A stretch of 42,343 nucleotides of DNA from a virus. The notes beneath the pieces are model-generated. The model ran no database searches. It saw nothing but the letters and a program-made list of their open reading frames with translations, and was not told the origin of the DNA. Positions within the stretch are counted from its first letter, which is position 1. Each line of letters starts with the position of its first letter. This document shows positions 7,281 to 41,727 of this stretch, piece by piece. The DNA is taken from the IMG/VR virus record IMGVR_UViG_3300010371_000057, positions 1 through 42,343 of that record. The stretch is one strand, 5' to 3'. The translations under genes and the position numbers were made by a program.

Positions 7281-7632
7281 ACCAGCACGTCGCGTTGATG
7301 CTGGCGGAGTTCCATGCCGCCGAGGCGACAAAGATCGACTGGTCCGCTGTCCATGCCTGCAACAGCATCGACGGGCCGTTTATCGGCACTTCCAGCAACG
7401 CGCCGACCGAGACCGCTGCCAACACTTGCGCGCCACCAGCGCCCGTCCCGAGGCTCACAAGCACGGTATGGTTTGCGGTTTCCTTGAACCGGCAGCCGAC
7501 CAGCATCGCGTCTGCCGGCACCGTGCCCAGCGTGCCGTTCGCAGTGAACGTGCCGCCGATACCCTCGATGTTGCCGGAGCTGGTCCAACCTCCGCACACC
7601 AGGGCCGCCGCCAGAGCTATCCAGGCCCTCAT
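7270..7632 (-). CDS. Secreted beta-rich protein, 120 aa, tail region
   Basis: The ATG at 7632 overlaps the stop of the large tail fibre (ATGA); a longer ORF to 7689 lies inside the fibre gene. Residues 1-18 (MRAWIALAAALVCGGW) look like a signal peptide, with a cysteine at 13 that is not in a good lipobox. The mature part is a beta-rich domain of about 100 residues (GGTFTANGTLGTVPA, HTVLVSLGTGAGG, ending INATCWYVR). No family recognised. Confidence 0.6.
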   Translation of the reverse strand: MRAWIALAAALVCGGWTSSGNIEGIGGTFTANGTLGTVPADAMLVGCRFKETANHTVLVSLGTGAGGAQVLAAVSVGALLEVPINGPSMLLQAWTADQSIFVASAAWNSASINATCWYVR

Positions 7633-31002: not shown

Positions 31003-31572
31003 TCAGGGGTGGGGGTGGACCAGCGCGACAGCGGTGCGCTTGAACTCAATTTGCGAGGAGCCGAGGACGTTCAGCAGCACCCAGACGCGATCGCGGGCGG
31101 TGCGGCTGCAAACGCCACGGAACGAAGCGAAGGGGCCGCCCGTGATCTCCACCTCATCGCCGCGATCGACCTCACGCGGCTCGGCGGGTCGTATGATGCC
31201 GTCTGCCCCACGCTGGGCCATGAGGGTGGCGACAACCCGGGGTGGCACAACGAGCGGCATACCGGCCGGCGAGCGGAGGACTGACGCCATTTCCTCGCCG
31301 CCCGCGTTCCGCACGACCATCCAGCGGTAGTCCTGAACGAACAGGTAGCGCGGGAAGATCGGCCGGATGCGCGTCTGTCGGTTGGCGAGGGCGACGGCTT
31401 CGAGGGGCAACCATGCCGCCGCGCCTTCCTGTCGCACCCTAGCCTCGGTGGCGGCCTCTTGGTGGGGCCGGGTGTAGACGCAATGCCAGGGGGCATCCGG
31501 AATGCTCGCGCAGGGCACAAAGCGGCGGGAATCGGTGCCGCGATGACCCTGTAGGCTGGCGTCTATGCTCAT
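31003..31572 (-). CDS. NusG/RfaH-like transcription antitermination protein, 189 aa
   Basis: The ATG at 31572 overlaps the upstream stop (ATGA); the longer ORF to 31731 is inside the neighbour. WHCVYTRPHQEAATEARVRQ (about residues 30-50) is the NGN-domain start (W-V-RxxxE), IFPRYLFVQ is the typical NusG/RfaH P-G/R-Y-hF motif, and the C-terminus has a KOW-type segment (DRGDEVEITGGPFASFRGV). Such phage paralogues load on RNA polymerase and prevent termination. It lies just downstream of a terminator and before the late genes, suggesting that it promotes late transcription (inference). Confidence 0.8.
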   Translation of the reverse strand: MSIDASLQGHRGTDSRRFVPCASIPDAPWHCVYTRPHQEAATEARVRQEGAAAWLPLEAVALANRQTRIRPIFPRYLFVQDYRWMVVRNAGGEEMASVLRSPAGMPLVVPPRVVATLMAQRGADGIIRPAEPREVDRGDEVEITGGPFASFRGVCSRTARDRVWVLLNVLGSSQIEFKRTAVALVHPHP

Positions 31573-32093
31573 TCCGTGGGCACCGTCAAGTGGGTTTGTG
31601 ATGGTTTTTCGGGCTTTGCTTGGGAAGTGGGCACTATGGCATAGGGCGGTGCCGCTGGAATGGGCAAACGATCGATCTCGGCGCGGGCCGCGTCGAGGTC
31701 CGCCTGAAGTCGCGAGAGCAGAGCGTGCCATGGCTCCGCGATGCAGAGCTGGGCCGCATTGTCACCCCCGCCAGCCGCCCCGTGACCTGCCTCCGGGGTT
31801 GTGCCCGCTACCCCAGGTGCGGCGGGGGCGGCCGGGGGCTGTACGGGCTTCCTGGCGGCCGTGGCGAGGGCGGCGTCCTGTGTTTCCCTGATGCGGGCCA
31901 ATACGTCGGGCCACTGCTCGGCGTTGAGGGGCTGAAGCGCCGGCCCGGCATGCGCCTCCCGCTCCACCACCTCCCACGCCTCGAGGCAGCGCCGCCACCA
32001 GCTGGCCCGCAGTCCCGCGTCGGCGGGGGTGAGGCACAGCACGCCGACGGCGTTATGGAGGCAGGCGAGGTAGTGGCGTTCAGCGGGGGTCAT
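31569..32093 (-). CDS. Hypothetical phage protein, 174 aa, first gene after the repeat region
   Basis: ATG at 32093 with AGGAG 7 nt upstream. The first about 75 residues are an ordered helical domain (TPAERHYLACLHNAVGVLCL, ASWWRRCLEAWEVVEREAHA); the middle is low complexity (PVQPPAAPAAPGVAG), and another helix follows (LLSRLQADLDAARAEIDRL). No family recognised. It is coupled with the NusG-like gene. Confidence 0.6.
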   Translation of the reverse strand: MTPAERHYLACLHNAVGVLCLTPADAGLRASWWRRCLEAWEVVEREAHAGPALQPLNAEQWPDVLARIRETQDAALATAARKPVQPPAAPAAPGVAGTTPEAGHGAAGGGDNAAQLCIAEPWHALLSRLQADLDAARAEIDRLPIPAAPPYAIVPTSQAKPEKPSQTHLTVPTE

Positions 32094-32116
32094 GGAATGC
32101 TCCTGGTTCGACGGTC

Positions 32117-32154
32117 AGACGTGTCCAGACGTGCCACACGACTGAGCACGACTG
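32117..32154. repeat. Two pairs of 8-bp direct repeats with 9- and 10-bp spacing
   Basis: CAGACGTG occurs at 32117-32124 and 32126-32133 (9-bp step), and CACGACTG at 32137-32144 and 32147-32154 (10-bp step). One helical turn between copies would place a bound protein on one face. The block lies 24-61 nt upstream of the start at 32093. Confidence 0.6.
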
Positions 32155-32177
32155 GATGTCACGGTTTGGACGGATAG

Positions 32178-32246
32178 TGTCACGCTTCGGCCCCGGAATC
32201 CGGCCAATCCCGCGCAACAGGCGGCCCGGCATGTCACGCTTCGGCC
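32178..32246. repeat. 15-bp direct repeats TGTCACGCTTCGGCC
   Basis: Identical 15-bp copies at 32178-32192 and 32232-32246 (54 bp apart), with related partial copies at 32157 (TGTCACGG) and 32252 (GTCACGCATCG). On the minus strand these read GTGAC-centred sites. Similar GTGAC runs are often seen in phage replication regions, but that comparison is from memory. Confidence 0.65.
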
Positions 32247-32414
32247 GGGGACGGTCACGCATCGCGGGGCTGCTCGAAATTGCCCGAAAGTCAGCAGGGG
32301 TTTTGAGCAGGCTGGGGCACCGGGCAGGCGGTGATACCCCCGGACGTGGCGGCGTGGCTTGAGGCGGCCGCGCGGTTCCACGAGCGGCATCCGCCGCCGA
32401 GGCGGGGGTAGTCA

Positions 32415-32437
32415 CAACTTTCGGCTGCAACTTTCGG
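32415..32437. repeat. Tandem 10-bp repeat CAACTTTCGG, 13-bp step
   Basis: CAACTTTCGG at 32415-32424 and 32428-32437, each followed by CTG or TTG. Part of the repeat-rich segment between the primase gene and the gene at 32093. Confidence 0.6.
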
Positions 32438-32512
32438 TTGTCAGCCCGGAAAAGCGCCGGGTCGGCGCGTCCCACGCGCGCCCGCTCCCGCGCTGGGGGG
32501 GTCTGGGGGGGG

Positions 32513-32739
32513 AACCTCCGCAACAACCTCCGCACAACCTCCGCAGCCAAAAATCCGGCCATTTCTGCGGGTTTGGCCGGGATGTTACGATGCGGCAAAT
32601 ACCAACCTCCGCAAATGCAACCTCCGCAACCTCCGCAACCTCCGCAACTCGTGTGTAGGGCTGGAAAGATTCCCGAGAACCCCAGTTCCAGACCTCCGCA
32701 AAACGAAGTCACTTTTCAGACCTCCGCACAACCTCCGCA
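32513..32739. repeat. Iteron-like array of (A/G)ACCTCCGCA, 10 copies
   Basis: Copies begin at 32513, 32525, 32536, 32604, 32619, 32628, 32637, 32691, 32719 and 32730; those at 32619-32646 are tandem with a 9-bp step. Two more copies, in opposite orientations, lie at 33811-33820 and 33849-33858 inside the primase-helicase gene, in the codons of its variable linker. The copies fall in different reading frames, so they are held at DNA level. All sit beside or in the replication gene, as expected of an origin or replication-protein binding site. Confidence 0.75.
32549..32580 (-). terminator. Candidate Rho-independent terminator after the early operon
   Basis: CCGGCCA (32555-32561) and TGGCCGG (32574-32580) form a 7-bp G+C-rich stem with a 12-nt loop; on the minus strand the stem is followed by ATTTTT (complement of 32549-32554). 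It lies 130 nt past the primase-helicase stop, so it would end early transcription, and it is embedded in the iteron array. Confidence 0.65.
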
Positions 32740-34754
32740 GCAACCGGAGGTTGAAGACGGCGGATTACGCGAAGCCCGATCGCCTTCGTCCGTTTGTCGT
32801 ACACCTCCGATCGCAGGAAGCCTCCCGCCAGCCAATTCTCCACCTGTTGCGCAACCAGCCGCTCCGGCAATCCGAGGTGGATTTGCGCCCAGAGCGGCAA
32901 ATACCGTCCATGCTTCCGTGTCTGCGGCACTGATGACCACGGTTCATCTGCGTCCCACGCGCGCGCGATTTCCCGGAAGATGGCGTCGATCTGATCCCAT
33001 TCGATGCGGCGGGCGCGGGCCGGCTGGGTGCCGTCTTCGGCGAGGAAGGCGCCTTCCTGCCAGCGGAAGGTGATCTCGCCACCTTTCGGCGCGTAGTTGG
33101 CCTTCATGCGCGATATCAGCCGCGTATCCCCGGTGGGGTCGTCTTCCGGGCGCGTTACGTAAAGCCGGGAACGGAAGGTGTTGTTCCAGGCCGTGTTGCC
33201 GCTGGTGCCGGCGCCGGTGGCAAGCCCGGCCGCAGACGGATGGCCGGCGATGACCACGCCGCAGTTCCAACGTCGCGCGATCTGGCCGCCGACGCCCTGC
33301 ACGAACAGCCGCGCATGGACACGGGCGATTTCGTTGCCCCCGAAGATGTCGGCGAGCGTATCGAGCACGACCAGGGTCGGCGGGAACGCGTCCAGCATCC
33401 GACAAAGGTCGGCGAAAAGGGGCGTAAGGTGCGGGTGGTTGCTCTGGTCGAACGTCATCAGGAGGTTGTCGAAACCGAGCCGAGGGGCCAGCCGCAGATT
33501 TTCCAGGTGCTGCATCCCGACTTGGTAGGCGCGGTTGATCGACTCCTGCCGGCGATGCAGTTCGTGCCGATCGTCCTCGCACATCATGCCGAACGCCCGG
33601 CCGCCCTTCACGGTCAGGCCGAGCCAGGGCAATCCGAGCGCCACGGACGATAGGAGTTGCTGCGCTAACAACGACTTGCCCACCCCGCCATCACCATACA
33701 GGCCGGTGGCATACCCGCGTGGAATCCAACCGTCCACGATCCATTCGCGCAGCGGTGCCGGCGCCGTCCAATCCCGGGGCGGATTGATGATTTGCGCGTC
33801 GGGATCATCCTGCGGAGGTTCGACGGAGGTTGTAGTCTCGGCGTCGTCAACCTCCGCAGGCTCCTCGCCGAGCCGCGCTTCCAGGGAATGCCACCATCCG
33901 GGGTCTTGTGGGGTGGCCGGCGCTGCCTCCTGATGGTGGTGCCCGTTGAGCGGGCGATCGGGCAGTTCGATCGGCTTCGCGCGGCCTCGCTCCAATCCCC
34001 AGGCAATTGTCTTGGCAGCGGCCTTCCAGTCCTTGACCCCGGGCGGCAGCGCCGCGAGCAGGAGCTGCGTGGCGGCGTCGTCCGACAGCCCAGCGGCGTC
34101 CTGGATGCCGCCGAGCGAAAGGGCTGCGTTACGGAGCGCGAAGTGCTTGGCGCCGTCAGCGGCGCGCCCCACCCGGTCAGCGACGCCACGAATGAAGCCG
34201 TCGTACCGTTTGGACTCCACCGACACCGCTGGGTGCGCGACTGGCCGGCGCGGGGGTTCGGGGGGCGGGAGCGCGAGTTCCAGCAGCCAGTCCGGCCACT
34301 CGGCGATATCGGAATCGTTGATGATGCCGTATCCGAGCGACGGCGGCATGACGACGTAGCCACCGTCGCCGCGGACATCGACGCCTTGGGCGATGCGCCC
34401 GGCGCTGTTGCGGACGCCGGGGGCATGCCGGAACAGATAATGCCGGCCGCCCGATTGGGTCTGGTGAATGCGGGTCTCAGGCAATCGGTGCGTGTTGGCC
34501 GATTCCCAGTCCTGAGCGCGGTGCCGGTAATCCAGGTCCAGCACGTCGAACCCGGTGATCTCGCCCGTGGGCGAACCGACCAGATCGCCCGCCTGCCCGA
34601 ACATGACCTTGATGCGCTCGGGATCGGTGCTGGCGTCGAGAAACCCCCGGCCGCCGCGCTCTTTGCTGATGGCCGGCTGCTTGTTCCGCGCGCACGGGAA
34701 TACAGGGAAGCCCTGCGAGGCAATCGAGAGGGCAATGTCGAGTGCTGTTGGCAC
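32709..34754 (-). CDS. Bifunctional primase-polymerase / RepA-like helicase, 681 aa
   Basis: Starts with GTG at 34754. Residues 5-170 are a Prim-Pol (archaeo-eukaryotic primase) domain with FDVLDLD (69-75, metal-binding aspartates), SGGRHYLF (101-108) and VDVRGDGGYVV (125-135). A basic/acidic linker (about 265-330) carries two repeat copies at DNA level. The AAA/RecA-type helicase has Walker A GDGGVGKS (354-361), Walker B TLVVLD (460-465) and an arginine-rich C-terminal region. Such fusions prime and unwind DNA at phage and plasmid origins. The adjacent iteron-like array fits an origin. Confidence 0.9.
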   Translation of the reverse strand: MPTALDIALSIASQGFPVFPCARNKQPAISKERGGRGFLDASTDPERIKVMFGQAGDLVGSPTGEITGFDVLDLDYRHRAQDWESANTHRLPETRIHQTQSGGRHYLFRHAPGVRNSAGRIAQGVDVRGDGGYVVMPPSLGYGIINDSDIAEWPDWLLELALPPPEPPRRPVAHPAVSVESKRYDGFIRGVADRVGRAADGAKHFALRNAALSLGGIQDAAGLSDDAATQLLLAALPPGVKDWKAAAKTIAWGLERGRAKPIELPDRPLNGHHHQEAAPATPQDPGWWHSLEARLGEEPAEVDDAETTTSVEPPQDDPDAQIINPPRDWTAPAPLREWIVDGWIPRGYATGLYGDGGVGKSLLAQQLLSSVALGLPWLGLTVKGGRAFGMMCEDDRHELHRRQESINRAYQVGMQHLENLRLAPRLGFDNLLMTFDQSNHPHLTPLFADLCRMLDAFPPTLVVLDTLADIFGGNEIARVHARLFVQGVGGQIARRWNCGVVIAGHPSAAGLATGAGTSGNTAWNNTFRSRLYVTRPEDDPTGDTRLISRMKANYAPKGGEITFRWQEGAFLAEDGTQPARARRIEWDQIDAIFREIARAWDADEPWSSVPQTRKHGRYLPLWAQIHLGLPERLVAQQVENWLAGGFLRSEVYDKRTKAIGLRVIRRLQPPVAAEVVRRSEK

Positions 34755-35722: not shown

Positions 35723-36044
35723 GCGCCACCCGCCTTTCCCGCCGCCCACGCCCCCATATGCGCTGCTTATCCACCTTGTGCGTCAGCCGGTCATGCTCGG
35801 ACAGCACCGTCACGACCGCAGCGCTCGCCGGCGCGTAGCACACCCGGATGCGCCGTTCGCACGCGGTGACGAACCACACCTCCATCCCGTCCGGCTGCTT
35901 CCGCTGAAGCACCGCGTCGAACCGCACGCCCGCGACGGCATCGGTGATGTCCAGCATGATCTGCCGGAAGTCGGCCACCGTGAGCCGGATGCCGAATCGT
36001 TCCAGCGCGCGTGATGCCGCATGCCCAGGCGCAAGGTCACTCAT
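35715..36044 (-). CDS. Hypothetical protein, 109 aa
   Basis: ATG at 36044 overlaps the methyltransferase stop. Helix at the start (GHAASRALERFGIRLTVADF, RQIMLDITDAVAG), then strands (VWFVTACERRIRVCYAPASA, VTVLSEHDRL). Ends VAHE, as does the methyltransferase, reflecting the duplicated gene junction. No family recognised. Confidence 0.6.
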   Translation of the reverse strand: MSDLAPGHAASRALERFGIRLTVADFRQIMLDITDAVAGVRFDAVLQRKQPDGMEVWFVTACERRIRVCYAPASAAVVTVLSEHDRLTHKVDKQRIWGRGRRERRVAHE

Positions 36045-37251
36045 GCGCCACCTCGGCGAATAGGCCGGCGTCGCGGGTGAGGCGATTTGCAGCCATTACC
36101 GTGTAATCGGGATTCAATTCGATGCCGATGCAGTCACGGCCGAGCCGATCGGCGACAAGGCCGGTGGTGCCGGCGCCGTAGAAGGGGTCGAGAACGACGC
36201 ACGGAACGGGATGCGCGGGCGAGCAAGCGCAGGATTGGTGCCATTCGCTTATTCGCTCACGCATCCCAGCGAGGATGCGAGCCTTAACCGCGCTGGCGTC
36301 CTGAACCCCCGCAGCGGCGTGGTCCTTCGTGGAGCGCCCGTTGTAACATCCCAACGCATCGGCGCCACACGCGGCCTTGTGCGCTTCGTCTGGCGCCCCC
36401 TTTGTGACAATCCGCACCCACGGCGCGCCGCAGGTAGGACAGGCGCCACGCTCGCTTGTGCCAGCCTTGATGCATCGGTCGGCGAGGTCGGGCGGGAATG
36501 TCGCGAAGTGGGCGTCCGTAAAGCTGCGGGTGGTTATCGTCCAAACGTTACGGAGATTGCGGCCGGCTGGGTTCGGTCCTCTTTGGTATTTCTCCCTAGC
36601 CGCCCGCTTCATATCTCCCCCAGGCTGCCGGCTCGCGGGACCGGTCCCCATCATCGCATAATTATACCTGCCCACACTCGCTTCGTTGTATCCCTCCCTC
36701 ACCGCGTCCCCGTCGTAGAAGTACCGCGCTGCCTTCGTCAGCAAGAATACGTGTTCATGCGCTGCGGTAGGGCGGTCCGTGACGCTCTCCGGCATCGGGT
36801 TCGGCTTGTGCCAGATGATATCCGACCGCAACCACCAGCCATCCGCTTGTAGTGCGAGCGCAACACGGGCTGGGATCATCAGGAGGTCTTTTTCCTTAAT
36901 GACACCGCCCAATGCCATGCCGCCCGCCGCGCGGCCGTTGCCGCGTTCGATGATGTAATTGTGCTTCCCCGGGTCGCCTGGCTTGTGTTGCCCCTTGCCT
37001 GCGTCGCATGCGTAAGAGTCGCCCAGATTCAGCCAAACCGTCCCATCCTCCCGCAGAACGCGGCGCACTTCCCAGAACACCTCGCGCAATGCCACGACGT
37101 ATTCGCTCGGCGATGCCTCAAGGCCGATCTGTCCGCTCGCCTTGTAATCGCGCAGCCCGAAATACGGTGGACTCGTTACCACGCACTGCACCGACGCATC
37201 CCCGAGCGTGCGCAATACCTCCCGGCAGTCGCCACGCAGGATGCGGATCAC
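36037..37251 (-). CDS. Site-specific DNA methyltransferase (N4-cytosine or N6-adenine), 404 aa
   Basis: GTG at 37251. TSPPY (residues 26-30) is motif IV and DPFYGAGTTG (355-364) is the S-adenosylmethionine-binding motif I; their order (IV before I) is that of beta-class enzymes. Extra cysteine pairs occur between them (CPTCG at 271-275, CAC at 341-343), a likely zinc-binding insertion. HFATFPPDLADRCI (248-261) is another family landmark. No partner restriction gene is visible, so it is probably an orphan phage enzyme that masks phage DNA from host restriction (inference). Confidence 0.88.
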   Translation of the reverse strand: MIRILRGDCREVLRTLGDASVQCVVTSPPYFGLRDYKASGQIGLEASPSEYVVALREVFWEVRRVLREDGTVWLNLGDSYACDAGKGQHKPGDPGKHNYIIERGNGRAAGGMALGGVIKEKDLLMIPARVALALQADGWWLRSDIIWHKPNPMPESVTDRPTAAHEHVFLLTKAARYFYDGDAVREGYNEASVGRYNYAMMGTGPASRQPGGDMKRAAREKYQRGPNPAGRNLRNVWTITTRSFTDAHFATFPPDLADRCIKAGTSERGACPTCGAPWVRIVTKGAPDEAHKAACGADALGCYNGRSTKDHAAAGVQDASAVKARILAGMRERISEWHQSCACSPAHPVPCVVLDPFYGAGTTGLVADRLGRDCIGIELNPDYTVMAANRLTRDAGLFAEVAHE

Positions 37252-37850
37252 CGCCGCGCCCCCAGGCCGACCTGCATGGCCGTCGTAATCCCCCCGCTGC
37301 CGTAACGCGCACGCCCAGGCTTGGCGCGGGTGGGCTTGCGCACCACGGCCGGCGCACGCTCCTTCGCCACCACTCGCGCCTCATACTCGGCCGCGAGCGC
37401 ATCCGCGTTGCCGTGCACGTCGAATCCGTAATTGCGCAACGCCGCGACGATGCCGGCCATCGAGCTACACACCGCCACCGACTGGCCGGCGCGTCGCATC
37501 GCCGTGTGCACGCCCTCCTGCGCCGACGACACACGCGAGCCGCGCTTCAGCTCGATCCACAAGTCTACGCTGCTGCCACCGTCCTGCGCCGCCTGGCACA
37601 CGAACACGTCCGGCAGTCCGAACTTCACGCCACGCCCCTGTAGCGCCGCGCGTCGGCCTATGTGCGCCATGTCGGCAGCCGCATGGTCGATCGCCGTCGT
37701 GAACATCGGCGGCACCACGACCCGGTCGAGCAACCGATCGGCCCATGCCTGGAACGAATGCTCCGGGCTGCGGCGACGCGGCTTCTGCACCTGCGCCCCA
37801 CCCGCCACGCCGGCCGGGCCGTCTGGGTCGAGGAGGTCGGGGGTCAGCAT
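37248..37850 (-). CDS. VRR-NUC-type nuclease, 200 aa
   Basis: ATG at 37850 overlaps the end of the GapR-like gene. The nuclease core is GLPDVFVCQ (metal-binding Asp), DLWIELKRGSRVSSAQEG (E-x-K motif and conserved Gln) and RRAGQSVAVCSSMAGIV, the order of VRR-NUC domains found in phage-encoded PD-(D/E)xK enzymes that act on branched DNA. The C-terminal 50 residues are a basic tail. Its place beside replication genes supports a DNA-processing role. Confidence 0.75.
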   Translation of the reverse strand: MLTPDLLDPDGPAGVAGGAQVQKPRRRSPEHSFQAWADRLLDRVVVPPMFTTAIDHAAADMAHIGRRAALQGRGVKFGLPDVFVCQAAQDGGSSVDLWIELKRGSRVSSAQEGVHTAMRRAGQSVAVCSSMAGIVAALRNYGFDVHGNADALAAEYEARVVAKERAPAVVRKPTRAKPGRARYGSGGITTAMQVGLGARR

Positions 37851-38119
37851 CCCAACGCCCGCCGGTAAACGTCGAGCAGCGTTTCCTGCTCCTCCACCTC
37901 CGCCGGCTCCTGCCTGCGAATGCGGATCAGCTGACGCAGTACCTTCGTGTCGAACCCGGCGGATTTCGCCTCGGTGTATATGTCCTTGATGTCCGAACCG
38001 AGTGCCTTGCGCTCTTCTTCAAGCCGCTCGATGCGTTCCACCAGCGATCGCAGCCGATCCGCCGCGATGCCGCCCGCTGTCACGTTGTCGGTTTTCTCGA
38101 TTGCGCGGATTGCCGGCAA
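37844..38119 (-). pseudogene. GapR-like DUF2312 gene interrupted at codon 3-4 by a transposon
   Basis: The frame from TTG at 38119 (inside the transposon end) encodes DNVTAGGIAADRLRSLVERI, ERLEEERKALGSDIKDIYTE, AKSAGFDTKVLRQLIRIRRQ, the hallmark of DUF2312, the family of the alphaproteobacterial nucleoid protein GapR. Removing the transposon and one 9-bp repeat restores an ATG at 41491 in the series MAIRAIEKTDNVTAGG, with a stop-start overlap (TGATG) to the upstream HTH gene. Only the first three codons are detached, so the domain itself is whole. The gene may still be made from the TTG or may be silent; no ribosome-binding site is seen before the TTG. Confidence 0.8.
38106..38114. repeat. 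Target-site duplication, left copy (CGGATTGCC)
   Basis: Identical to 41481-41489 on the other side. The exact element end is ambiguous by one base, so the duplication is 8 or 9 bp; 8 bp is the usual figure for the IS1595 family. Confidence 0.85.
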
Positions 38120-38143
38120 TTTTATACTTGACTTACCCAGCGG
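38115..38143 (+). repeat. Left terminal inverted repeat of the transposon
   Basis: 15 identical outermost bases (GGCAATTTTATACTT), then TTACCC and CGG shared with the right end (24 of 29). The TTG within it is in frame with the detached GapR-like gene. Confidence 0.88.
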
Positions 38144-38156
38144 GAAGGGGTAGGAC
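38128..38156 (+). promoter_or_regulatory. Candidate transposase promoter at the left end
   Basis: TTGACT (38128-38133), 17 nt, TAGGAC (38151-38156). The -35 box overlaps the terminal repeat. A ribosome-binding site AGGAGG at 38166-38171 lies five bases before the ATG at 38177. The -10 box is poor. Confidence 0.4.
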
Positions 38157-38176
38157 TTTGGGCATAGGAGGCCCCC

Positions 38177-39142
38177 ATGACCAAGTCCGTCCTGTCCGCC
38201 GACCATTTCCATGACGAGGCCGCCGCCCTGGCGTTCGTCGAGGCGCGGCTGTGGCCGAACGGGCCGGTCTGCCCTCGGTGCGGCGAGACCGCTCGCGTCG
38301 GGCGGATGAACGGCAAGAGCACCAAACTCGGGCAGTGCAAGTGCTATGTCTGCCGCAAGCCATTCGCTGTAACCGTCGGAACCATTTTCGAGTCCAGCCA
38401 TATCCCGCTGCACATCTGGTTGCAGGCGATGCACTTGCTCGGCAGTTCGAAGAAGGGGATCAGCACCCACCAACTGCATCGGACCTTGGGCGTCACCCTC
38501 AAGTCCGCATGGTTCCTGTCGCACCGCATCCGCGAGTGCATGAAGGAAACCCGCGACCTGTTCACCCCGCAGATCGGAGGTGCCGGCATTACCATAGAGG
38601 CGGATGACACCTATATCGGCGGCAGCGGCGAAAATCGCGCGTTCGGGCCGATCCCGCCGAAGCAGATCGTCATGTCGTTGGTTGAGCGTGGCGGGAAAGT
38701 CCGCAGCTTTCATGTCCCGAATGTGACCGCCACCACTCTGGCCCCCATCCTCGGATTCCACGCCCATAAGGACAGCCGGTTCAATTCCGATGAGGCGGCG
38801 GTCTATCGGTACCTTGGCTGGAACTTCCAGGGCGGTCATGGCGCCGTCAACCACAGCGCCAAGGAATATGTCCGGGGCGAGGACTACACCAATTCGGTCG
38901 AGGGCTACTTCTCCATCCTGAAGCGTGGGATTTACGGTTGCTACTTCCACGTGTCGGAAGCCCACCTTCACCGCTACCTGTCCGAGTTCGATTTCCGATA
39001 CAGCAATCGGATCGCGCGGGGCATCGACGATGTGCAGCGTACCGACCTGATCGTGAAGGGCGCCAAAGGCAAGCGGCTGACCTATCGCACGACTAGTGGA
39101 AACTGGACAGTCGAGATTGTCCCACCCCAAGCGGGGGCGTGA
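38177..39142 (+). CDS. IS1595-family (ISXO2-like) transposase, 321 aa
   Basis: ATG at 38177 with AGGAGG upstream. Residues 32-59 form a zinc ribbon (CPRCG ... CKCYVC). The catalytic core has EADDTYIGG (first Asp about 143-144), FNSDEAAVY (Asp 205), then NHSAKEYVRG, TNSVEGYFSILKRGIYG (Asn 239, Glu 242, Lys 249) and LSEFDFRYSNR, the standard order of the IS1595/ISXO2 transposase domain. No frameshift or missing residue is seen, so it may be active. It moves the element bounded by the inverted repeats at 38115 and 41480. Confidence 0.93.
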   Translation: MTKSVLSADHFHDEAAALAFVEARLWPNGPVCPRCGETARVGRMNGKSTKLGQCKCYVCRKPFAVTVGTIFESSHIPLHIWLQAMHLLGSSKKGISTHQLHRTLGVTLKSAWFLSHRIRECMKETRDLFTPQIGGAGITIEADDTYIGGSGENRAFGPIPPKQIVMSLVERGGKVRSFHVPNVTATTLAPILGFHAHKDSRFNSDEAAVYRYLGWNFQGGHGAVNHSAKEYVRGEDYTNSVEGYFSILKRGIYGCYFHVSEAHLHRYLSEFDFRYSNRIARGIDDVQRTDLIVKGAKGKRLTYRTTSGNWTVEIVPPQAGA

Positions 39143-39274
39143 GAGGGAATGGAGACGCGGATCGGTCATTGCCGATCCACGGCAGGGGGAGTTGGCGCTT
39201 GACGCACTCCCAGCGAAGTTCGGCGACCCGTAGCAGGGTCGTAATGCCACAACTCGAACGGAGGGCTGTTTGCC

Positions 39275-39574
39275 ATGCCAAGCATACCAGAAGACAAACC
39301 AATCCCAATCATTGACAGCCCGCTGGCACCGGACGTCTTCGCAGATGATGCGATTGGTGTCTTTTTGAACAATGGGAACGTCCACATTACATTCACCTCA
39401 CGTCGTTGCGATTACACGCAGACACCTAGCTTCTTCACCAATGTCGTGATTGGTAGATTGGTAATGCCATTTTTCGGCGCTGAGGGCATGGTGAAATTCC
39501 TTGCGGACTTTGTAGAACGGATGAAAAAACAAGCCGCAAGTCCTCCGTTAGAAGCCCCGAAGACGCTCCAATAG
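39275..39574 (+). CDS. Transposon passenger, DUF3467-like small protein, 99 aa
   Basis: ATG at 39275 with GGAGGG about 10 nt upstream. It reads PIIDSPLAPDVFADDAIGVF, then NGNVHITFTSRRCDYTQTP, NVVIGRLVMPFFGAEGMVKF, LADFVERMKK. The strand-strand-helix plan with VIGRLVMP and a terminal helix resembles DUF3467-type proteins, of unknown function. A 132-nt gap with a 7-bp hairpin (39159-39178, no T-run) lies between it and the transposase. Small genes like this are often seen beside IS1595 transposases, by recollection. Confidence 0.65.
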   Translation: MPSIPEDKPIPIIDSPLAPDVFADDAIGVFLNNGNVHITFTSRRCDYTQTPSFFTNVVIGRLVMPFFGAEGMVKFLADFVERMKKQAASPPLEAPKTLQ

Positions 39575-39594: not shown

Positions 39595-39768
39595 ATGCCA
39601 GCACGCAAACCCCGTCCGCCCGACGAAAAGCCCCAGCGCGAACGGTTCATCGAGACCGCGCGCGAGATCGGCGCGTCAGAAGACCCGGAGGAGTTCGAGC
39701 GGGTGTTTCGAAAGGTCATGGCACCTCAGATGCCGAAGAGGCCACAGGTAAAGACCAAATCCGATTGA
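39595..39768 (+). CDS. Transposon passenger, small charged protein, 57 aa
   Basis: ATG at 39595 after GAAAGAG; an upstream GTG at 39583 adds four residues. The sequence PARKPRPPDEKPQRERFIET, AREIGASEDPEEFERVFRK is charged and helical and reminds me of small proteins often found near transposase genes in alphaproteobacteria. Its end overlaps the 3' end of the DUF262-HNH gene by 53 nt, tail to tail, so antisense interference between the two is possible. Confidence 0.55.
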   Translation: MPARKPRPPDEKPQRERFIETAREIGASEDPEEFERVFRKVMAPQMPKRPQVKTKSD

Positions 39769-41356
39769 GTATGTGGTCTTTCACTGAATTGCAGAACGGA
39801 TGGCTGACTTGGGCGTTTGACATATCAGCAGCACCCAAGTTGCGCCGATCTACGGCGTGGTCGATTTGGATCGAGTTCTTGTGAACCAGGGCACCACATA
39901 ACGCGCACCTCGCACCAGCCGGAAGAGCTGCTTCAAAGTACGCCGCAGTCTTTGTCCCACGGTTGAATGACTTCTTCTCCTTCGTTGACTCAGGCCGAGC
40001 GTCGGGCGGTCGGGCCGCAGTCAAAAATGCAAAATCGGGCGCCGCAGAAAACTCGGCCTGAATCTGTTCTGCGCTCTTGCCGTCAAGCAGCCCTCTAAAC
40101 ACGCGATTGTAGTACTCCCGTAGCCGCGGAATATGCCTTGTCCCGCTACCAAGTTGCTTGATCAGGAGTGTTGTTGCCTCCTTGTGTTTAATCAGAAAGT
40201 CCTCAAAGTGCCGCCGGTGCAGAGTGAAATCAATCAGTTTTTCAGTTGCAGCTAGTTCCTCTAGGAAGCCAGAAACAGCCAGAAAGGTGGACGGCTGAAA
40301 TGCTCCGCTTCGAGTATAGAAATACACAACCGGATGCAGGCCAAGCGACCGGGAACTATCCCCTGCGATCCGGTCGATGCGGCGTCGTACTCCTCGCAGA
40401 TATTCCACGGTAACGCTTCCGTCGGCGTCGGGCGGCAATTTCTCCTTGTCGTCCCCCGTGGATGTGCTGTCCGCAATCCTGACGTTGTTGGCTTGGTTTA
40501 CGAGGTCAAACACAAATGGCAGAGCGTTGTACCCCCTCCCGCCGACGGGGACGTCCAATGTAGTTAATGGCATGCCAGTGATGGGCGGCTGGTATAGCGC
40601 CCGATAAATGTCTCTACCTGCCGTTTCGATTTGAGTCTGGACCTCTCCTCCGAACGCATTCCAGTAGCGGTGGCCAGACCCAGCGTGTGTAATTGCGCGA
40701 GCTGAAATAGCACTGGCAGAACCACGCGACCTCAATAGCCGCCGTTCGGTTGGGTCGATGGGCGTTCCCTGCTGATTGATCTTAAAGAAAGAGTCCTCGG
40801 CGGATTTTGCGTCAGTCGCAGTAACCCACTGGGCAACCAAGGAATTGTCCGCAAGGTTGCTAAGCCGCTTCTGCATGTTCTCCGGGGCGCCCCCTCGGTT
40901 ATTCCGGAACGCTTGGTACTGCGCGTAAGAACCCACCAGTTTTAGCGCAAGTTCCCTCGTCCGTTCTGCGACCCGCCGCTGATCGTCGGTGATATGACCG
41001 CCAAAATGGTCGATTGACGTGCGTCTGTCCCCATAGTCGTCCAAAATCCATGCCATCAGAGCGCTCAGACGGTGGGCACCATCAATAACGAATATGCTGC
41101 GCCCCGCTCGCCAAAGAATTATGGCCGGGATTAGGTCCGCATCGAGGAATGACCGAATAAGGTCTACCACTTTGGCGGGGGTCCAATGGGCCGTTTCCCG
41201 CTGGAAGTCTGGTTTCCGCAGATCGCCAGCAAAAAAGTGGCCATCCAGGTGCGCTATCGAAATTCGATCTGGCGGAGTAGCTTTCGATGCGGCGTCGTCC
41301 ACGGCAAAATCATCGCGCGGGATTAGCGCATCCAAGTTAACGACGTTCGTGCTCAT
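39716..41356 (-). CDS. DUF262 domain and HNH nuclease protein (SspE/GmrSD-like layout), 546 aa
   Basis: ATG at 41356 with a G-rich site upstream. Residues about 33-105 are DUF262: PDFQRETAHWTPAKVVDLI, then FVIDGAHRLSALMAW (89-103), which matches the DGQQR motif except that QQ is AH. FFKINQQGTPIDPTERRLL (190-208) is the second family block. A helical middle leads to a zinc-type HNH: CALCG (484-488), IQIDHAVDRR (497-505), N514, HPFCNS (519-524). DUF262 plus HNH is the plan of defence nucleases such as SspE, GmrSD and BrxU, which hydrolyse NTP to control cutting. The gene has much lower G+C than phage genes and is carried by the transposon. Substrate specificity is unknown. Confidence 0.82.
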   Translation of the reverse strand: MSTNVVNLDALIPRDDFAVDDAASKATPPDRISIAHLDGHFFAGDLRKPDFQRETAHWTPAKVVDLIRSFLDADLIPAIILWRAGRSIFVIDGAHRLSALMAWILDDYGDRRTSIDHFGGHITDDQRRVAERTRELALKLVGSYAQYQAFRNNRGGAPENMQKRLSNLADNSLVAQWVTATDAKSAEDSFFKINQQGTPIDPTERRLLRSRGSASAISARAITHAGSGHRYWNAFGGEVQTQIETAGRDIYRALYQPPITGMPLTTLDVPVGGRGYNALPFVFDLVNQANNVRIADSTSTGDDKEKLPPDADGSVTVEYLRGVRRRIDRIAGDSSRSLGLHPVVYFYTRSGAFQPSTFLAVSGFLEELAATEKLIDFTLHRRHFEDFLIKHKEATTLLIKQLGSGTRHIPRLREYYNRVFRGLLDGKSAEQIQAEFSAAPDFAFLTAARPPDARPESTKEKKSFNRGTKTAAYFEAALPAGARCALCGALVHKNSIQIDHAVDRRNLGAADMSNAQVSHPFCNSVKDHILNRIWSLPVASSASEVP

Positions 41357-41451
41357 TGCTTCGCCCCCCAAGGGTAAGGGCCGGCGGCGGGGTTCCCAAG
41401 GCTCGCAACGGCCGGCGGCGCTCACGATTCGCCCCCGATTGTGACAGGATT

Positions 41452-41480
41452 CCGGCGGGTAATGGAAGTATAAAATTGCC
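41452..41480 (-). repeat. Right terminal inverted repeat of the transposon
   Basis: Reverse complement matches the left end at the 15 outermost bases and at the TTACCC and CGG blocks further in. The frame of the DUF262-HNH gene stays open through this end. Confidence 0.88.
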
Positions 41481-41489
41481 CGGATTGCC
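41481..41489. repeat. Target-site duplication, right copy (CGGATTGCC)
   Basis: Direct repeat of 38106-38114. Immediately beyond lies the original ATG (41491-41489, sharing one base) of the interrupted GapR-like gene. Confidence 0.85.
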
Positions 41490-41490
41490 A

Positions 41491-41727
41491 TCACGCCACC
41501 TTCCCGATCCGCCGATATCGCGTTTCAACGATGTAACCGCACGCGTTGGCCAAACTCTCCGGAACCGCCCGATGGCCGCTCAGAGTCAGCGACACAGCGG
41601 TGTGCGACACGCCCGCCGCACGCGCCCAGGCCACGACGCCGCCGGCCGCTTCGGTTGCGCGGCGCAGATCGGCCAGCACGTCGGCTGCGGTGTGGGGTTC
41701 GGTTGTCACGCCGGTTGCGGTGTTCAT
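41491..41727 (-). CDS. Small HTH protein (Cro/CI-like), 78 aa
   Basis: ATG at 41727 overlaps the upstream stop (ATGA); the TGA at 41491 shares a base with the original ATG of the GapR-like gene. LRRATEAAGGVVAWARAAGV, SHTAVSLTLSGHRAVPESLA is an XRE-type helix-turn-helix. It is clearly related to the regulator at 1460-1672 (WARAAGVS against WARATGIS, with a similar C-terminal VETRYRRIG/VVTYRRKP). It is the last gene before the transposon. Confidence 0.75.
   Translation of the reverse strand: MNTATGVTTEPHTAADVLADLRRATEAAGGVVAWARAAGVSHTAVSLTLSGHRAVPESLANACGYIVETRYRRIGKVA

Follow-up and report, generated by a model that had tools for sequence, protein, structure and literature searches.

The primase-helicase gene and its repeat array

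We analyzed a 42,343-base virus record (the window, G000) whose head, portal, terminase and DNA-ejection genes look podovirus-like. On its minus strand lies a primase-helicase gene, and an array of short repeats begins within the last codons of this gene and extends about 200 bp past its stop (32709). The features of the locus are as follows.

32709..34754, minus strand: primase-helicase gene, 681 aa
34287..34733, minus strand: Prim-Pol domain (PF09250, aa 8-156, E=9.5e-26)
33234..33767, minus strand: AAA_25 (RepA/RecA-fold) helicase domain (PF13481, aa 330-507, E=3.3e-30)
32757..33002, minus strand: predicted C-terminal winged-helix domain (HHHHEE), the proposed iteron reader (AlphaFold2 model, fold matches, conserved alignment)
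33811..33858: second, intragenic site in the disordered linker (aa 294-335), with TGCGGAGGTT at 33811, CGGAGGT at 33824 and inverted AACCTCCGCA at 33849
32513..32756, plus strand: main iteron array, ten exact RACCTCCGCA and one inverted AACCGGAGGTTG, with homologous arrays in relatives
32495..32512, plus strand: G7-TCT-G8 tract closing the array (a C-tract on the gene strand), from the sequence and comparison with relatives

AAA_25 was the sole helicase family in the primase-helicase, and the same held for eight relatives. The C-terminal domain matched no family in Pfam or NCBIfam and no PDB relative by sequence, and DNA similarity of the window to known phages offered nothing useful near the array.

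Exact copies of RACCTCCGCA start on the plus strand at 32513, 32525, 32536, 32604, 32619, 32628, 32637, 32691, 32719 and 32730, and the inverted AACCGGAGGTTG at about 32743-32755 forms part of the same array; on the strand of the primase-helicase gene, the unit reads TGCGGAGGTY. The preliminary description had counted ten copies in 227 bp, some in tandem at 9-bp steps, and the exact starts bear this out (32513-32739, with 9-bp steps between 32619, 32628 and 32637). Under a first-order Markov model of the window, 0.0013 copies were expected per 227 bp against the ten observed, and 0.24 across the 42 kb against 13 observed; an isolated extra copy lies at 7587. The reading phases of the ten starts relative to 32513 were 0, 0, 2, 1, 1, 1, 1, 1, 2 and 1, and because all three phases are occupied, a protein repeat is excluded. 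The earlier view that copies in several frames reflect selection on the DNA agrees with these phases and with the recurrence of the array in relatives described below. As in a classical iteron plasmid origin, the copies are tandem direct repeats in one helical register. The array was not clearly AT-rich (43% AT versus 36% overall). A terminator had also been placed within the array, and this was not confirmed: a scan of 32050-32900 detected no terminator-like or promoter-like site and no short hairpin with a T run.

An inverted pair had likewise been noted in the linker of the helicase. The two RACCTCCGCA copies are present there, inverted at 33811 (minus) and direct at 33849 (plus), and the CGGAGGT at 33824 makes a set of three sites. 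Two copies within 48 bp of the linker have a probability of about 4e-8 under the first-order Markov model. The inverted linker sites recur in two relatives (L033 and L034), in which the encoded residues differ. The full-length model gives the linker (aa 294-335) a pLDDT <50, which marks it as disordered, and because the intragenic sites lie in this stretch, selection at the DNA level would cost the protein little.

Several neighboring minus-strand genes were also characterized. A NusG-like protein (31003-31731; PF02357, phrog_6386 transcription antiterminator) is encoded just before the terminase genes and is possibly a dedicated late-gene antiterminator. A 513-aa protein (37844-39385) carries a GapR-like DNA-binding domain at its end (PF10073, E=3e-31). 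Alphaproteobacteria are the typical carriers of GapR, which binds overtwisted DNA close to replication forks, and the domain hints at the host and at a role in replication. The 592-aa product of the gene at 39716-41494 combines a GmrSD_N domain with an HNH at the C-terminus and is a phage-borne protein of restriction-like or defense make-up. The N6/N4 DNA methyltransferase (PF01555) at 36037-37251 contains about 170 internal residues outside its PHROG match, which are perhaps an inserted recognition domain.

Repeat arrays in relatives and their C-terminal domains

A 22-base exact pattern of the repeats matched eight other viral contigs. Six of these (L006-L009, L011 and L012) were rejected, as the matches fell in structural or low-complexity coding genes and represented protein repeats or coincidences of coding sequence. 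The remaining two (L010 and L013) had the repeats just 3' of an AAA_25 helicase gene and in the same orientation. Their helicases are 19 and 27% identical to that of the window overall, and 33-38% identical over the last 75 residues.

We then collected relatives blind to the motif, using the C-terminal domain alone as query against phages, plasmids, IMG/VR, GTDB genomes and further genomes from the class to which the L023 host belongs. To these we added AAA_25 helicases, whatever their C-terminus, from a scan with the full-length alignment, and L010 and L013 were the only motif-selected loci. Among the resulting 95 distinct loci, at least four CGGARGT-type (CGGARNT-type) words within 300 bp were found in 27 of the 37 loci with the domain and in 0 of the 58 without it (Fisher 9e-16). 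Nearly all motif-blind relatives carried CGGARGT-type arrays, mostly beginning at the 3' end of the gene. The arrays 3' of the gene consisted of GGCGGAGAT in the cultured Rhizobium phage RHph_N65 (MN988536), TGCGGAAGT in Caenibius plasmid p1, GGCGGAAGT in EBPR siphovirus 5, TGCGGAGGT in a Hyphomicrobiales genome, TGCGGAGTT in L018, TGCGGAAGT in L020/L021 and L027, both TGCGGAGGT and TGCGGAAGT in L024, and GGCGAAGGT in L025; the motif-blind matches L030/L031 had related arrays at the same place. Across relatives, the word thus varies among CGGAGGT, CGGAAGT, CGGAGTT, CGGAGAT, CGAAGGT and GGCGAAGGT. Two loci with the domain (L105 and L111) showed no array within the available DNA, and a third (L022) had a divergent array only. 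Some arrays were not adjacent to the gene and lay 0.7-3.5 kb farther 3' on the same contig (L094-L110, L096 and L109), so the array is a DNA element in its own right rather than part of the 3' UTR. Conservation of the copies in related phages had been proposed as a check, and the array does recur in relatives with the conserved C-terminal domain.

This domain follows different primase modules, namely Prim-Pol, Prim-Pol with PriCT_2, and a DnaG zinc finger with Toprim. Its carriers are tailed phages of alphaproteobacteria and others, and some are plasmids or circular records (L015 and L014). Two further repeat types were observed. In the very distant member Microcystis phage Mae-Yong1326-1 (L028), ACTGGCGCAAAA-type repeats follow the 3' end of a gene for a RecA-family ATPase, after 3282, and in L107 a further iteron variant, of the GCGGATAA type, lies about 1.6 kb beyond the gene.

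When the commonest 8-mer in the 450 bp at the gene end was counted de novo against other windows of the same locus, 50 of 90 AAA_25 helicase loci, with or without the C-terminal domain, had an array at the 3' end of the gene (p<=0.05). The words differed by C-terminus: CTCCGC or CTTCCGC accompanied the window-type domain, GGTTGGAA or GGGTGGAA many others, and CCCAGACA that of L005. The last case is a natural swap, with a homologous core (337 bits, 45% identity), a dissimilar C-terminus and a 3' array of CCCAGACA. The converse case is that of L010 and L018, whose cores are dissimilar (about 41 bits) but whose C-termini are similar, with iterons that are the same or near-identical. In a partial Mantel analysis of 70 loci with an array, sharing of iteron words correlated with C-terminal similarity once core similarity was removed (partial r 0.598, p=0.0005) and not with core similarity (-0.089, p=0.99); the loci are related rather than independent, which makes these p-values optimistic and indicative. 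The contrast between C-terminus and core is not subtle: 179 of 236 pairs alike only in the C-terminus shared a word (76%), compared with 41 of 808 pairs alike only in the core (5%). These findings indicate that the swappable C-terminal domain decides which repeat a primase-helicase would use, and the covariation of iteron and C-terminus indirectly supports specific iteron binding by this domain. The central idea of the preliminary description, that the copies are initiator sites read by the primase-helicase, is thereby strongly supported at the sequence level, as the array word changes with the C-terminal domain. A second large C-terminal family (..GPPSKRR..) was seen paired with GGTTGGAA/GGGTGGAA in L084, L073, L080, L077, L091, L044, L051 and L041.

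Predicted fold, array grammar and GC skew

With a 30-row alignment, AlphaFold2 modeled the C-terminal domain at pLDDT 95-98 (about 96), with helices at 30-45, 54-59, 63-71 and 75-88 followed by a two-strand wing, and on this model the domain is predicted to be a winged helix. The VIA-align matches were DNA-binding winged helices, the best being SAMD1 (Z 9.7). A plasmid centromere protein and the winged helix at the C-terminus of MCM were among them, tied with many regulators, and the matches support a common fold only and not a function. Foldseek against the PDB gave no match below E 0.001, and inspection of the C-terminal domain alignment by eye revealed no residue-to-base recognition code.

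Spacing between iterons peaked at 9-12 bp and rose again at 33-35 bp, and of 249 copies, 199 were oriented with the gene and 50 against it. AAGTCATTGAAATCATT-like AT-rich elements occurred between iterons in about half of the arrays; the element was sought in the array of the window and was absent there. This AT-rich 17-mer was observed between the iterons of otherwise unrelated phages (L013, L010, L014, L018, L023 and L094-L104) and is a candidate unwinding element or host-protein site. At the place that corresponds to 32495-32512 in the window, many relatives have a CCCCCxxAxxCCCCC-type C-tract that closes the array and is often accompanied by a TATACTTCGTATA hairpin.

The preliminary description had named cumulative GC skew as a check on the origin, with a switch elsewhere counting against it. 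The outcome was mixed. The raw cumulative skew of the window does have its extreme at the array (32511), but as a maximum, which is the polarity of a terminus. In relatives, the distance from the skew minimum to the array was 210 bp in G390, 954 bp in plasmid p1, 1.9 kb in G386 and 3.5 kb in G389. Across 13 genomes with an array, the array tended to lie near the skew minimum (mean normalized distance 0.355, P=0.034), and more closely so without the window (0.308, P=0.010). The skew therefore supports an origin at the array in relatives, with the polarity reversed in the window.

Proposed origin function, rival readings and known systems

The main array is very probably a replication origin. 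We consider it highly likely that this is the origin of the podovirus-like phage and that the adjoining primase-helicase is its self-recruiting initiator, with an iteron-binding C-terminal winged helix. What the sequences establish is the array and its recurrence, the way it depends on the C-terminal domain, and the predicted fold; from these we infer direct binding, firing of the origin, melting, loading of the helicase and what the linker sites do. In the proposed mechanism, which is modeled on the precedents of SaPI Rep (PMC7581432) and pRN1 (PMC4234260) with a different helicase class, the C-terminal winged helix of each protomer would bind one TGCGGAGGT unit. Neighboring units are spaced by about one turn of the helix, and most share an orientation. 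Several protomers would collect on the array, and the RecA-fold (AAA_25) helicase ring would assemble on, or help to melt, nearby DNA. The N-terminal Prim-Pol, or another primase module, would then make the primer. The inverted linker sites would offer the same primase-helicase a second binding site, perhaps for looping, handcuffing or autoregulation.

The repeats could instead be sites at which the primase-helicase or a regulator controls transcription, as operators of the antiterminator/terminase operon or in autoregulation. The position of the array in the window between the replication genes and the NusG-like antiterminator and terminase genes fits such a role, as do the linker copies inside the primase-helicase gene. 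However, the RHph_N65 array lies between convergent genes, where no promoter of a neighboring gene is expected, the arrays of L094-L110, L096 and L109 lie 0.7-3.5 kb from the gene in other contexts, 32050-32900 has no promoter-like site, and the identity of the iteron follows a domain of a replicative helicase. We regard control of transcription as improbable. A still smaller chance is given to plasmid-partition or packaging sites (centromere or pac): centromeres also have direct repeats about a helical turn apart, a centromere-binding winged helix is among the many structures that the model matches, and some members are plasmids or circular records, but the domain with which the iterons covary is fused to primase and helicase, and they do not covary with ParA/ParB or terminase.

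An action at the RNA level was also weighed, in which GGAGGU on the sense strand, a perfect Shine-Dalgarno core, would let the 3' UTR recruit ribosomes or a GGA-reading protein. The coding strand does carry UGCGGAGGU, and 199 of 249 copies are in gene orientation. Against this, CGGAAGT, CGGAGTT, CGGAGAT and GGCGAAGGT break the Shine-Dalgarno core and yet remain arrays, helicases with other C-termini have unrelated words (e.g., CCCAGACA), arrays lie up to 3.5 kb from the gene, and inverted copies are present; we hold this to be very improbable. The least probable reading is that the repeats arose by chance, encode a protein repeat or are a functionless product of slippage. Slippage could produce 9-bp steps, and six of the eight exact-pattern contigs proved to be coding coincidences or protein repeats, but ten copies stand against 0.0013 expected, three frames are used, the spacing is unequal and the array recurs in relatives found blind. 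These comparative data already refute the reading.

Among known systems, the proposed origin and self-recruiting initiator most directly recall SaPI Rep, which reads iterons directly downstream of its own gene via a C-terminal domain (PMC7581432). Like SaPI Rep and SCCmec Cch2, the window protein would be an initiator helicase that loads itself and reads DNA through its C-terminal domain, and iterons lie directly downstream of its gene (array 32513-32756, stop 32709), likewise in relatives. The helicases of SaPI Rep and Cch2 are DUF927 or D5_N/Primase_Cterm, whereas that of the window is AAA_25, a RecA-fold RepA-like motor, and unlike theirs, the window-type C-terminal domain is exchanged among different primase modules. 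The system would thus work like SaPI Rep and its ori, but its different class of helicase places it outside that family. In pRN1, a cis element immediately 3' of the gene for ORF904 (Prim-Pol, SF3 helicase and winged helix) is essential and remains functional when moved (PMC4234260). The fusion of Prim-Pol, helicase and winged helix is shared with the window protein; the pRN1 element is a 100-nt stem-loop served by an SF3 helicase, whereas the window has an iteron array, AAA_25 and no SF3 family. Kazlauskas et al. proposed that the C-terminal winged helix of PolpTN2 and PrimQH primases recognizes the origin (PMC5862659). That proposal was a structural speculation without cognate sites and concerned other families, whereas here both sites and covariation are found.

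In RSF1010, whose oriV carries iterons, iteron reading (RepC), helicase (RepA) and primase (RepB') reside in separate proteins. The window resembles RSF1010 in its RepA-like hexameric helicase, as judged by AAA_25, its dedicated primase and its iterons, but the primase is fused to the helicase and the three roles would be united in one polypeptide. No RepC-like family was detected in the scanned ORFs of the window, nor was a lambda O-family match, and scans of window ORFs with Pfam or PHROGs found no Rep_3 or other stand-alone initiator. Phage P4 alpha combines primase, helicase and origin-binding domain in one protein and uses two site sets (ori and crr), with crr outside the alpha gene. The window protein would share this combination and has two separate site sets, but helicase class and iteron differ and its second set is intragenic.

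A literature search for the repeat words found nothing, and in the open-licence literature no iterons with AAA_25 phage helicases were found, papers on SaPI/SCCmec, pRN1 and PLE being matched instead. Choice of the repeat by the C-terminal domain was not described for AAA_25 primase-helicases in the open-licence literature searched, and this modular pairing of domain and iteron is the interesting part of the system. Few phages with a Prim-Pol or RepA-like helicase have a known origin or initiator. In at least 60 loci examined here, initiator domain and cognate site can be paired by sequence alone and natural domain swaps provide controls, and the pairing of CGGAGGT, CGGAAGT, CGGAGTT, CGGAGAT and CGAAGGT with one small winged helix offers a testable recognition code. 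It is likely that tailed phages and phage-plasmids with AAA_25 share a modular origin system, in which the winged helix serves as an interchangeable cartridge for reading the address and each cartridge has an iteron array of its own, as a rule at the 3' end of the gene. If so, exchange of cartridge and array would change origin specificity with the replication engine kept, which would explain how one engine is retargeted, and the C-terminus would predict the origins of many uncultivated phages from sequence, serving as a candidate origin finder.
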